The notes under the pieces: generated by a model | Databases searched by the model: none | The model's input: only the letters and a program-made list of their open reading frames with translations | What the model was told of the DNA's origin: nothing | Shown: piece after piece, positions 106 through 38,395 of the stretch | Position numbering within the stretch: position 1 is the first letter of the stretch | Layout of the letters: each line of letters opens with the position of its first letter | Translations under genes and position numbers: made by a program | IMG/VR virus record: IMGVR_UViG_3300027770_000011 | Span: 1-38,395 of that record | DNA length: 38,395 bases | Strand: one strand, 5' to 3' | From: a virus

Positions 106-218
106 AAGCCGGGACGCAATACGCGCCTGTTCCTCCGTGTCAGGTGCAGGGCACGGTTAAGGGCGGAGGCACGGCGGTCATCGTGACGGTGTTGCCGCTG
201 GATGCGACAGCGACGTGA
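1..218 (+). CDS. Thaumatin-like lipoprotein, C-terminal part (gene starts at 37849)
   Basis: This is the 3' end of the gene that starts at 37849 and crosses the contig join. Joined over the 105-base overlap, the product is 219 residues. This part carries Cys162, Cys165, Cys173, Cys182 and Cys194 of the complete protein, the cysteine-rich segment after the thaumatin signature. The frame is open from base 1 to the TGA at 216-218. The next gene starts with GTG at 215, giving a GTGA stop/start overlap typical of translational coupling. See the entry at 37849 for the full description. Confidence 0.85.
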   Translation, partial: NGNAALFGVFPLGCDICTARQNPSCGFAKGTDGCKAGTQYAPVPPCQVQGTVKGGGTAVIVTVLPLDATAT

Positions 219-370
219 AAGCTTACGGTCAACGTAAAAACGACTGGAACCGCGTGCGCAAAATGGACATGGGCGATTGCGGCCAGCACGACCGCAAGAA
301 GCCGTCCGACAAGGCGCTGAAATGTACGGCGCGACAAGCGGCCAAGCGGGAGATTGCGCAACATGCTTAA
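215..370 (+). CDS. Small basic protein, 51 aa, unknown function
   Basis: A 51-codon frame starts with GTG overlapping the upstream stop (GTGA) and ends with TAA at 368-370, inside the start of the next gene. The product is strongly basic and hydrophilic (many Lys, Arg, Asp) with two cysteines and no membrane segment. The only real evidence is tight coupling on both sides in an operon where almost every junction overlaps, plus the lack of any better frame filling 219-362. No function is recognised. It lies in the lysis/host-interaction cassette, but that does not prove a lysis role. Confidence 0.6.
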   Translation: MKAYGQRKNDWNRVRKMDMGDCGQHDRKKPSDKALKCTARQAAKREIAQHA

Positions 371-536
371 ACTTTTTGCACTTGCGGCAGTTGCGGCGCT
401 AACCGGCTGCGCGACGTGCGAACTTCAACGCGCCCACAACGACGCTGGCCGGTGTTGGGTGCAAGACAATTGCCCAAACAAACCGCCGCATTGGGTGCGT
501 GACGAACCGTGCCCGAAGGAGCCGACCCATGATTGA
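363..536 (+). CDS. Small lipoprotein, possible o-spanin
   Basis: A 57-residue product starts at ATG 363 (a TTG at 354 is in frame), with GGGAG about 9 bases upstream. It has a short hydrophobic N-terminus ending in the lipobox LTGC, so lipidation is expected at Cys16. The mature part is short, Pro/Cys-rich, with four further cysteines. In Gram-negative phages a tiny lipoprotein near the endolysin is commonly the outer-membrane spanin (Rzl). That role is inference: the candidate inner-membrane partner at 37565 is separated from it by two genes, and the mature domain shows no recognised spanin motif. It overlaps the next gene by 8 bases. Confidence 0.65.
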   Translation: MLKLFALAAVAALTGCATCELQRAHNDAGRCWVQDNCPNKPPHWVRDEPCPKEPTHD

Positions 537-753
537 CCTAGACGACCTCAAACCATACGCCGCCGCCGTCGCCACCGCTGGCGCGTTGTTCGCGGTTGTA
601 ATCCGCCCGCGTATACCCGCCGCGCTGTGGGCAAGATTCGGCGTCGTCGGCGAAATCGTGGATGTTTTGTGCGGGAATTATGGGCACGCGCAAAACGCGA
701 TTGCGCCGGATGACGGGGTTGCTGTTAAGTTACCGCAGGATGCGCCGCGCTAG
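529..753 (+). CDS. Hypothetical protein, 74 aa, one possible membrane segment
   Basis: ATG 529 is chosen because AAGGAG lies 7 bases upstream (516-521); the in-frame start at 499 has no such site. Residues 9-25 are Ala/Val-rich and moderately hydrophobic and could form one membrane segment or an amphipathic helix. The rest is soluble-looking. This is the last gene of the rightward late operon: the next gene, at 770, points the opposite way, so the two transcripts converge. A holin or membrane accessory role is possible but not shown. Confidence 0.6.
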   Translation: MIDLDDLKPYAAAVATAGALFAVVIRPRIPAALWARFGVVGEIVDVLCGNYGHAQNAIAPDDGVAVKLPQDAPR

Positions 754-4453: not shown

Positions 4454-4699
4454 CTATTTTGAAACCGCTTGTTTGTGTTGCCAAATCAACTTGCCGCCGT
4501 CGCGAATCTCCAGCAAATCGCACGCAAACATCGCCTGCCACTGCGCAGACCCGCAGCCGTCGCCGTCGTCAATCAGCAAGAACCCGCGACTGCGCCGCAT
4601 CGACGCGATAAAATCGGGGATATTCGCGGGCTTGACGCTGTGCGCTAGGGTGCCGTGTAGGGTCTCGGTGCCGATGCAGCGGCGAAATGTGAAAGTCAT
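4454..4699 (-). CDS. Hypothetical protein, 81 aa
   Basis: Start 4699 is fixed by AAGGAG six bases upstream; longer frames on this strand are the methyltransferase read out of frame. The product is a mixed alpha/beta small soluble protein with FRRCIGTETLHGTL near the N-terminus and a RGFLLIDDGDGCG stretch in the middle. No family is recognised. It overlaps the stop of the methyltransferase gene by 4 bases and ends just before the operator/promoter at 4445-4393, so it is the last gene of the transcription unit upstream of that promoter. Confidence 0.65.
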   Translation of the reverse strand: MTFTFRRCIGTETLHGTLAHSVKPANIPDFIASMRRSRGFLLIDDGDGCGSAQWQAMFACDLLEIRDGGKLIWQHKQAVSK

Positions 4700-5488
4700 A
4701 GCGACTCCTTCGGGTACAAAACCGCGTTGCCAAACGACAACAGCGAATCGCAGTCGGCAATTCGCCGCTCTGCCACGGCGAAATAATCCGCATCCTGTTC
4801 GATGCCGATGAAATTGCGGCCCTCTTGCTTGCACGCGACGCCTGTGGTGCCGCTGCCCATTGTGCAATCGAGGACGGTTTCGCCCGCTTGCGTGTAAGTG
4901 CGGATGAGATAAGCCATTAGCGCGACGGGTTTTTGGGTTGGATGAACGGATGGCTCGTTTTGGCCGAAGTGAATTACACCGGACGGGTAGCCTGAAAATT
5001 CCTGCAAATTCTCTTGCCCTGCACCGCGATAGCAATCACCATTAGTGCGCCGATTTACCTTGCCATAGTGCGACAGTCCCTGTGGATTGTAAGTCGGCTG
5101 CTTTGAATAGAAAATCAGCACATCCTCAAACCCGTTCATTGGTCTTTTGTGAGCATTTAGGTGCCCAACCGGCCTCCGCTTTACATACGCCCATGAATAC
5201 TTGAGCATCGCCAAATTCGACGCACCCAGCGCGCTCGTAAACGGCTGGCTTGCCGTCAGCACAATCGCGGCGTTTGGTTTGCACACGCGGCGGAAGTGCG
5301 CCCACATCAGCGCGAACGGAATCACGGAGTCCCAAGCGCAAGCCGTTGTGCTTTCGTCAGCCGTAGGGCAAGTCAGCCAACACCATATCCACCGACCCGT
5401 CGGGGATAAGTGCCATCTTTTCAAGGCAATCGCCCATGAAAAGCTGAATGGCTGAGCGTTGCCCTACGGCTTTAACCTCATCGTTCAT
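4696..5488 (-). pseudogene. DNA methyltransferase (N6-adenine/N4-cytosine type), frameshifted
   Basis: The first frame starts at ATG 5488 and encodes 43 residues up to the catalytic motif DLPYG, then hits TGA at 5359-5357. Skipping one base there (+1, GGC-U-GAC) continues in frame to 4696. The remainder carries WDSVIPF, AIVLTASQPF, HPTQKP and the SAM-binding motif LDCTMGSGTTG. Motif IV comes before motif I, as in the permuted beta-type phage methyltransferases. A joined product would be about 263 residues, normal for the family. As it stands the catalytic and SAM motifs are in separate frames. It could be a broken gene, a sequencing indel or recoding (stop followed by C, as in prfB, but GGC is a poor slip codon). 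The start overlaps the HNH stop (ATGA). Confidence 0.8.
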
Positions 5489-12729: not shown

Positions 12730-13275
12730 ATGGCGGGAAAAGAGCTAGAGGCAACAACGGGCGAGTCTGCGGCGCAATGGACGCCGACGGATGAATTGAC
12801 CGCTTGGGCAAAAAATCCGCGCCAGAATAAAGCAGCCGTCGCTGAAATCGCCAAGTCGATTCGGCGCTTCGGATTCGGCGCGCCAATCGTCGCCAATCGT
12901 CGCGACGGCACAATCATCGCCGGACACACGCGGCACGCTGCAGCGGTCAAGCTCGGCCTTGCGCAAGTGCCAGTGCGCTGGCTTGACCTTGACCCAGCCG
13001 ACGCCCACGCGCTGGCACTTGCCGACAATAAGTTAGGCGAAATCGCGACTTGGGATGACGCCGCGCTTGCCGATGTGCTGCGCGAGATTCAGGCGGCGGA
13101 TGAAAGCCTGCTTGCGGATACGGGATTTAGCGAGGAGGATTTGGCGCGGCTGCTGGGGGAGGTGGAACCGCCAAAACCGCCGCCATCTAGCGCGCAAGAG
13201 ATTGACCCTGACGCGATGCAAATGGGCTGCAAATGCCCGCGATGTGGATTTGAGTTCGATGATAAAAACGCCTGA
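12730..13275 (+). CDS. ParB/Srx-fold nuclease-like protein with C-terminal zinc ribbon
   Basis: 181 residues. Residues 20-90 carry the ParB/sulfiredoxin pattern: NPRQN, EIAKSIRRFGFGAPIV, DGTIIAGHTRHAAAVKLG and VPVRWLDL, where the GHTRH region forms the nucleotide-binding/nuclease centre. A helical part follows, then a Pro linker and a C-terminal GCKCPRCGFEF knuckle likely to bind zinc. Such free-standing ParB-domain proteins in phages usually sit beside methyltransferase and terminase genes and are thought to act in DNA modification or nicking rather than partition; no ParA is present. It overlaps the next gene by 17 bases. Confidence 0.82.
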   Translation: MAGKELEATTGESAAQWTPTDELTAWAKNPRQNKAAVAEIAKSIRRFGFGAPIVANRRDGTIIAGHTRHAAAVKLGLAQVPVRWLDLDPADAHALALADNKLGEIATWDDAALADVLREIQAADESLLADTGFSEEDLARLLGEVEPPKPPPSSAQEIDPDAMQMGCKCPRCGFEFDDKNA

Positions 13276-36810: not shown

Positions 36811-37077
36811 ATGGTTATCAAAGCAGCAGGCGTGACGTGGGCGAACATTGCAACTTGGCTCGGCCTTCTCAGCGGCGCGTTGACGTTCACGCTGGCGTTC
36901 GCGTTTTACGCTGGCCAAATGGATGCGCGCATAAAAGCCAACCATACGGAAACAATGGCAAAGCTCGCAAAGATTGAAGCGGCGCTTCCCGTGATGGAAA
37001 AAATCAGCGCGGAGCTAGACAAGCAAATTCAGCACGTCAGAGACACTTGCTGCAAAGGGCAGGTGGTTGCGCGATGA
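36811..37077 (+). CDS. Membrane coiled-coil protein, possible holin
   Basis: 88 residues. One strong membrane segment lies at about residues 13-33 (NIATWLGLLSGALTFTLAFAFYAG), followed by a 50-residue coiled coil with Lys/Glu/Ala heptads and two adjacent cysteines near the end. It precedes the lysin gene by ATGA overlap, the usual holin place. The topology (N-terminal TM, long coil) would also fit an inner-membrane spanin. Holin is preferred from order only. Confidence 0.6.
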   Translation: MVIKAAGVTWANIATWLGLLSGALTFTLAFAFYAGQMDARIKANHTETMAKLAKIEAALPVMEKISAELDKQIQHVRDTCCKGQVVAR

Positions 37078-37568
37078 AAGCACCCGAAAACAATGGCACT
37101 TTGGAAGCAATCGCACTTCGCGCCGAATGGGCCAACGCTGAAAAGCCCGCGATTGCGGACGGCTACGCAATGGGGTCTGGGACGACGCGCGCAATTGCGC
37201 CGGTGCCGTGGGGCGCAGACCTAAAGCAGGATTGTAGCGCCTTTGCCGACTGGTGCGCGGGCATCGACAAGAAAGGCCCAGCGTCGCCGGTGTGGCAAAA
37301 TACCGATGCGCTGGTCAACGATGGCTTGCACACGCTCAAACAAGACTTGTGGCGGCTGTTTGATGCGCCGGTGCGCGGTTGCTTGCTGGTCTACGGCGGG
37401 CACCGTGACGCGCATGGTCGGCACCCAGGCCATGTGGGTGTTTGCGTGAGCGCGACCGAAACAATCGACAGCAGCAGCACCGGCAAGGGCATCGGGCGCG
37501 GCGTCCACTCAGTCGCGTGGTTCCTTGCACGCGGGGCAATCTGCATCGCACCTAACGGTGTCGCGTGA
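37074..37568 (+). CDS. Endolysin, NlpC/P60-like cysteine peptidase
   Basis: 164 residues from ATG 37074. The catalytic signature KQDCSAFADW (Cys54) and the later HPGHVGVCVS (His120) match NlpC/P60-type peptidoglycan hydrolases, and a third polar residue may be His145 in GRGVHSVAW. There is no signal peptide, so export would depend on a holin. It would cleave peptide stems of host peptidoglycan at lysis. Both neighbours overlap it by four bases. Confidence 0.8.
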   Translation: MKAPENNGTLEAIALRAEWANAEKPAIADGYAMGSGTTRAIAPVPWGADLKQDCSAFADWCAGIDKKGPASPVWQNTDALVNDGLHTLKQDLWRLFDAPVRGCLLVYGGHRDAHGRHPGHVGVCVSATETIDSSSTGKGIGRGVHSVAWFLARGAICIAPNGVA

Positions 37569-37849
37569 TTTACGCTACGTTCGCGCTGGGTTGCATTGTC
37601 GGTGGCGCTGTTATCTGGTGGATTCACTCGCTAGACCGTGACACGCCGCCGCCCGTCGCGCGTGAGCGTGTCGTCGATGCCCAAGCCGATTTAGGCCCCG
37701 AAACGAAAGAGCAATTTGACAAGCTGGCCTATGAATACAAGCCCGCGCTGGAAATACTAGCGCGGTCAAAAGTCAAGCCGTCGCAGATTCGCAATGACAG
37801 CGCGCAGTTGTCAGCACTTGGTCGGCACGCCGACGACTGGAAAGAATAA
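37565..37849 (+). CDS. Membrane-anchored protein, possible i-spanin (Rz-like)
   Basis: 94 residues with an N-terminal hydrophobic segment (about 3-20, IYATFALGCIVGGAVIWWI) and a polar, Pro- then Glu/Lys-rich remainder predicted helical. An uncleaved N-terminal anchor and a short periplasmic helical domain right after the lysin gene is the layout of Rz-type inner-membrane spanins. The start is GTG at 37565 overlapping the lysin stop. The coil is short for Rz, so this stays tentative. Confidence 0.6.
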   Translation: MIYATFALGCIVGGAVIWWIHSLDRDTPPPVARERVVDAQADLGPETKEQFDKLAYEYKPALEILARSKVKPSQIRNDSAQLSALGRHADDWKE

Positions 37850-38395
37850 TGAAACATCTTCTAATTATCGCCCTTGTTTTCGCAGGTTGCGTTAGTCCAA
37901 AAGCGCAGCCCGCGCTCAAATCGACGGTGGCGCTTGGCACGTCAACGCTGGCAATCGCCAACGCTACGGCCAAACCCGTGACGGCCAATTTCGCTTTTGG
38001 AGCTGATAGCGTTTTTTTGCCCGCATCGCTGCCAAACTGCGCGACATCCAGCGCGCTTAATTGCGCGCTGATACTGCCTGCAAACTCAACGCAAACGATT
38101 GATTTGGGCGGCAAATATCTAAACGCAACGCTGGCTTTTGACCTACCAGTCGGCTGCGGCGCGACCAAGGCCGAGCTAAACCTCAACAATCCCGCGTGGT
38201 ACGATGTAGCGGACGTGTCGCTTGTCGATGGTTTTAACCACGATTTGCAAATGCAATTCGGCGGCACACTGCTAGGCCCCACGCTGGGCAAAAACGGCAA
38301 CGCTGCTCTTTTTGGCGTGTTCCCGCTTGGTTGCGACATTTGCACGGCACGGCAAAATCCGTCGTGCGGATTTGCAAAAGGCACAGACGGCTGCA
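37849..38395 (+). CDS. Thaumatin-like lipoprotein (continues at 1-218)
   Basis: ATG 37849 overlaps the upstream TAA by one base. The full product, joined across the contig ends, is 219 residues. It has a signal peptide with lipobox AGC (lipidated Cys14), so it should be anchored in a membrane. The core motif is WYDVADVSLVDGFN (residues 117-130), followed by a hydrophobic LQM: the most diagnostic segment of thaumatin/PR-5 proteins. Eight cysteines (64, 72, 103, 162, 165, 173, 182, 194) besides the lipid Cys suggest up to four disulfides, fewer than in plant members. Its place between the spanin-like and other small lysis genes suggests an envelope role such as glycan binding, exclusion of superinfection or lysis timing. 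No known phage protein of this family comes to mind. Confidence 0.82.
   Translation, partial: MKHLLIIALVFAGCVSPKAQPALKSTVALGTSTLAIANATAKPVTANFAFGADSVFLPASLPNCATSSALNCALILPANSTQTIDLGGKYLNATLAFDLPVGCGATKAELNLNNPAWYDVADVSLVDGFNHDLQMQFGGTLLGPTLGKNGNAALFGVFPLGCDICTARQNPSCGFAKGTDGC
38291..38395. repeat. Terminal direct repeat, right copy
   Basis: This is identical to bases 1-105. It lies within the thaumatin-like gene, and the reading frame continues at base 106 of the left end. The unique genome length is therefore 38,290. Confidence 0.97.

Follow-up and report, generated by a model that had tools for sequence, protein, structure and literature searches.

The window, by which we mean the whole 38,395-nucleotide stretch of viral DNA analysed here (IMG/VR record IMGVR_UViG_3300027770_000011), carries a run of seven mutually overlapping genes that crosses its two ends, from 36811 to 753. 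The fourth of these genes encodes a lipoprotein with a predicted thaumatin-like fold. A simple script supplied the calls of the flanking genes, of which the small ones are uncertain. The run reads as follows, with the fourth gene given in its two parts:

36811..37077, + strand: small membrane protein in which a coil-like part comes after a transmembrane stretch, at best resembling a holin or Rz (hydrophobic stretch; weak match to the Rz-like spanin family phrog_1026, E 0.036).
37074..37568, + strand: probable endolysin, CHAP/NlpC-P60-like (PF05257 CHAP, E 5e-4, 21 bits against a cut-off of 26; homologue in the related contig L002 at 76%).
37565..37849, + strand: small membrane-anchored protein, hydrophobic in a single stretch at the N-terminus, which may be an inner spanin or a holin (homologue in L002 at 66%; no match in Pfam-type family or PHROG searches).
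37849..38395, + strand: first 182 codons of the thaumatin-fold lipoprotein gene, with signal peptide, lipobox C14, E109, D122 and D127 (open reading frame, junction, homologues, fold).
106..218, + strand: remainder of the thaumatin-fold lipoprotein gene, the last 37 residues and the stop (matched here by L003 and L014).
215..370, + strand: small basic protein whose gene begins before the thaumatin-fold gene ends (open reading frame; no family).
363..536, + strand: another small lipoprotein, proline-containing and with lipobox LTGC, a candidate for the outer spanin (LPAM_1, E 0.086, under the cut-off).
529..753, + strand: small membrane protein, last of the overlapping run (open reading frame with a hydrophobic stretch).

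An earlier, sequence-only reading had placed the gene in a lysis operon. For the window this is sound: the gene lies in an overlapping run with a CHAP-like endolysin and small membrane proteins, and its start falls within the stop of its neighbour (37565-37849). Promoter and terminator scans near the gene gave nothing above chance. The phage has a contractile tail, with sheath and baseplate genes. Elsewhere in the window are genes for a ParB-like protein (12730-13275) and a DNA methyltransferase (4696-5424); L002 has the ParB-like gene at 84% identity, although its structural genes differ from those of the window.

The thaumatin-fold gene is split by the contig end, as had been proposed. Positions 38291-38395 are identical to 1-105, an exact 105-bp repeat at the contig ends, and collapsing the repeat yields a single 660-nt open reading frame of 219 codons (37849-38395 plus 106-218). 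The length of 219 residues first given for the joined product was correct, but its second segment, taken as 1-218, counted the repeat twice. We consider the joined gene real because unsplit homologues in long contigs, L003 (50% identity) and L014 (65%), align with it over their full length and across the junction. A physical genome terminus inside the gene is ruled out: L002 ends at the same base as the window, with exactly 127 identical terminal bases (window 38269-38395), and the gene is whole in L003 and L014. This shared end most likely reflects branching of the assembly at k = 127 between related strains, and such a product of the assembly graph could pass for a genome terminus. Over the 182 codons, the window and L002 differ at 16 synonymous and 8 non-synonymous positions, which suggests that the gene is under purifying selection.

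The joined protein has a signal peptide, a lipobox (VFAG/C14) and, as noted from the sequence at the outset, eight further cysteines (64, 72, 103, 162, 165, 173, 182 and 194). A lipobox-type cysteine is present in nearly all relatives, in keeping with the proposed lipoprotein nature; the signal peptide of L023 lacks one, and the site in L005 is atypical. The eight cysteines, together with E109, D122 and D127, are invariant in all family rows that reach those positions. A thaumatin signature had been quoted from the DVSLVDGFN region. This claim stands in part, as the family conserves a D[VI]SLVDG[FY] block, but the block is not PROSITE PS00316: none of the family members matches that thaumatin pattern. 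The signature is not a matter of chance, because a dozen homologues keep all eight cysteines and the codon differences from L002 are mostly synonymous; the fold also speaks against a chance motif.

A single-sequence model of the 182-residue window fragment was set aside (pLDDT 32). The fold model is that of the homologue L014, which is 65% identical to the window protein, with a 13-row family alignment (pLDDT 85, pTM 0.84). All 29 of the PDB matches that Foldseek returned for this model at E<=0.001 are thaumatin-like, with no unrelated fold among them. In VIA-align, where we treat Z values within 1 of each other as ties, the model matches the thaumatin-like xylanase inhibitor TLXI at 12.7 and a bacterial thaumatin-like protein (PDB 7p22) at 12.6, while the first non-thaumatin family, GH64, reaches 8.0 and ostreolysin about 7. 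A search with the family profile likewise gave eight best PDB matches that are all thaumatin-like. The thaumatin-like fold proposed from the sequence is thus borne out, on the model of a homologue.

Membership in the thaumatin family PF00314 is a different matter. The modelled fold favours it, but the window protein scores 15.9 bits (E 0.01) against a curated cut-off of 27.4, L003 scores 17.5 bits, and the matches, found in 12 of the 13 members, are weak (best E 1.7e-4). Conserved cysteines number 16 in thaumatins and 10 in the small ones among them (PMC3048497); the phage family has eight besides that of the lipobox. Given this count and the sub-cut-off score, we regard the family as a divergent subfamily and file it as a divergent thaumatin-fold phage family, not as a member of PF00314. 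To judge from the model, the assignment to a divergent family of thaumatin-fold phage lipoproteins is almost certainly right.

The acidic cleft of thaumatins is formed by the residues known as REDDD. E, D and D of this set are invariant in the phage family with osmotin spacing, and our assignment covers those three: E109, D122 and D127 lie 13 + 5 residues apart, as do the osmotin cleft residues Glu84, Asp97 and Asp102 (PMC4360817). An active glycan hydrolase, such as some thaumatins and the GH64 glucanases are reported to be, would fit this conserved triad. It would also fit the rank of GH64 as the next structural family and the match of one family member to GH64 in Pfam (E 0.014). We nevertheless think a hydrolase improbable; GH64 enzymes are about twice as long as the phage protein, and of the cleft residues, the Arg and the fourth acidic one could not be placed in the phage family. 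We likewise give little credence to an inhibitor that, like TLXI, would act on a host envelope glycosidase or protease and protect lysis timing or particles. TLXI is the top structural match by Z and the fold is rigid and disulfide-rich, but the lead over 7p22 is a tie, and TLXI has no proper acidic cleft (PMC3048497), whereas the acidic triad is invariant in the phage family. The fold says nothing certain about function.

Scans of viral contigs converge on roughly a dozen loci, on records that range from 23 to 393 kb. Identity among the mature domains is about 45-65%, and the only grouping that the family tree resolves is L014 with the window. A Gemmatimonadetes MAG has one further homologue on one of its contigs; of 395 genomes from this phylum (Gemmatimonadota), no other gave a match. 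This contig (L033, L034) also encodes an M23 endolysin-like peptidase, a dual-specificity phosphatase and a Rep-like protein, and may be phage or plasmid rather than chromosome. Searches of INPHARED and of the plasmid collection PLSDB returned no homologue, PHROGs and NCBIfam hold no family for the thaumatin-fold protein, and we saw no phage or prophage thaumatin in the open-licence papers that we searched. Since the gene occurs here and there in uncultured phages that are otherwise unrelated, we conclude that it represents a real, undescribed phage protein family.

In several of these phages, the gene lies beside lysis genes. L002 shares with the window the ParB-like gene, a methyltransferase-like fragment, one tail-region gene, the lysis genes and the thaumatin-fold gene, and little else. 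L014 is a distant relative, with the window's structural genes at about 23-61% identity, and its thaumatin-fold gene (65%) is better conserved than these. The L014 endolysin is of another type (peptidoglycan-binding, with a weak M15 match), and the thaumatin-fold gene lies directly behind it. L023 has an M15 endolysin with Rz-like and holin-like proteins nearby, as judged by eye, and in L030 a GH25 lysozyme gene lies about 1.2 kb upstream. Recurrence beside endolysin genes in other phages is therefore seen in the homologue neighbourhoods that we examined.

The layout in the window could also be that of a spanin pair, in which the thaumatin-fold protein would be the outer-membrane partner of the small membrane protein at 37565-37849. 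A lipoprotein gene that starts within the stop of a gene for a membrane-anchored protein is the usual spanin arrangement. We consider this reading very improbable. Of the marks of an outer spanin (a small lipoprotein with an inner-membrane spanin), lipoprotein and gene overlap are present, size and fold are atypical, and the partner is only a candidate; known outer spanins differ from such a disulfide-rich globular domain of 200 residues. The second small lipoprotein (363-536) is a better fit, and in L014 no spanin gene stands between the endolysin gene and the thaumatin-fold gene. A small lipoprotein gene follows the thaumatin-fold gene in both phages (window 363-536; L014:7141-7386); the two products have no clear similarity and are candidate outer spanins.

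Across the family, the description as a lysis cassette fits the window, L002, L014, L023 and, loosely, L030, but not visibly L003, L005, L006, L008, L011, L015 and L025. With seven relatives showing no visible lysis cassette, lysis is not the general rule. L003, L005, L006 and L008 have no recognised lysis gene near the thaumatin-fold gene. Its neighbours are a patatin phospholipase gene and virion genes in L011, a baseplate-type protein gene in L025 and an integrase gene in L015. The patatin-like gene (L011:5048-6552; PF01734, E 1.9e-29) overlaps the start of the thaumatin-fold gene, and the two products are possibly a functional pair. Beyond the group of the window, L002 and L014, no partner gene is conserved across loci; the exceptions are two isolated pairs of other genes. 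Other apparent shared-neighbour matches were antisense shadows of the thaumatin-fold gene itself. Gene order portrays the thaumatin-fold gene as mobile, with a preference for lysis and late regions.

Our best reading, with a probability of roughly 0.4, is that the gene encodes a mobile, late-made, envelope-binding divergent-thaumatin lipoprotein that acts as an accessory in the lysis phase. We favour such an envelope role because the gene overlaps the endolysin operon and has been retained behind an exchanged endolysin in L014. We also count in its favour that L002 has few genes in common with the window beyond the lysis genes and the thaumatin-fold gene, that the gene stands among an M15 endolysin and membrane proteins in L023, and that it overlaps a patatin gene in L011. 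Against it count at least seven relatives without a recognised lysis gene adjoining, and L023, which lacks the lipid anchor. A lysis-phase role as such is tentative, with somewhat less than an even chance of being right. Since nearly all phages lack the gene, it is not essential for lysis.

Under this lysis-phase reading, the lipoprotein would be made late, together with the lysis proteins, as gene order indicates. It would be sorted to the outer membrane, because no Asp follows the lipidated Cys (the E. coli sorting rule), and would fold in the periplasm, stabilised by disulfides. The acidic face of the beta-sandwich could then serve to bind a ligand in the envelope, and the likeliest such ligand is a glycan. 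During the lysis phase the protein would help to weaken or open the outer envelope, its most likely role, and would be carried as a transferable gene. The fuller picture, of a thaumatin fold turned phage lysis protein that is made late, binds from a lipid anchor, passes among tailed phages, often beside endolysin genes, and takes part in opening the Gram-negative envelope, is possible but more doubtful.

Cor of T1 and Llp of T5 are exclusion lipoproteins that act early. The main rival of the lysis-phase reading is receptor masking, in which an outer-membrane lipoprotein of this kind would bind a receptor or surface glycan and block adsorption of other phages, or of the phage's own progeny on debris. 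Although we judge it unlikely, it stays a strong rival because the gene positions are scattered, the protein is lipid-anchored and Cor offers a parallel. Outside the window/L002/L014 group the thaumatin-fold gene is the only recurrent gene in unrelated phages, much as unrelated phages carry the cor cassette behind their tail fibre genes (PMC13164509), and the place of the thaumatin-fold gene next to an integrase (L015) or tail genes (L011 and L025) would fit. However, the thaumatin-fold gene stands at the end of an apparent late operon, whereas Cor and Llp act early. The PHROGs search showed no homology to either and no match to any family, the Cor family phrog_1119 included, and the window phage has no recognised tyrosine integrase.

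A lipid-anchored thaumatin fold that recurs as a mobile gene in tailed phages would make up a previously undescribed class of phage envelope proteins. Its recurrence, several times, beside endolysins poses an experimental question: is it a lysis aid, a receptor mask or a binder of envelope glycans?

Known thaumatin folds occur in plants, fungi and animals, in some bacteria and in large eukaryotic viruses. With thaumatin, osmotin, PR-5 and 7p22, the phage family has in common the predicted fold over the whole mature domain, the D[VI]SLVDG block and three acidic cleft residues at identical spacing; it differs from PF00314 proteins in its sub-cut-off score, its eight cysteines, its lipid anchor and its place in tailed phages. 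In a viral library, the clear matches that carry names are proteins of eukaryotic viruses. Those of Feldmannia virus and Tupanvirus are also virus-encoded thaumatin folds, but they come from viruses that infect eukaryotes, have about 15% identity and have no link to lysis genes known here. GH64 beta-1,3-glucanases share the thaumatin-like sandwich but are longer, with an extra domain, and a single phage-family member matches their Pfam model, weakly. Like the thaumatin-fold gene, the genes for Cor and Llp are phage lipoprotein genes that move between unrelated phages (PMC13164509), but their products are apparently unrelated, much smaller and early-acting.
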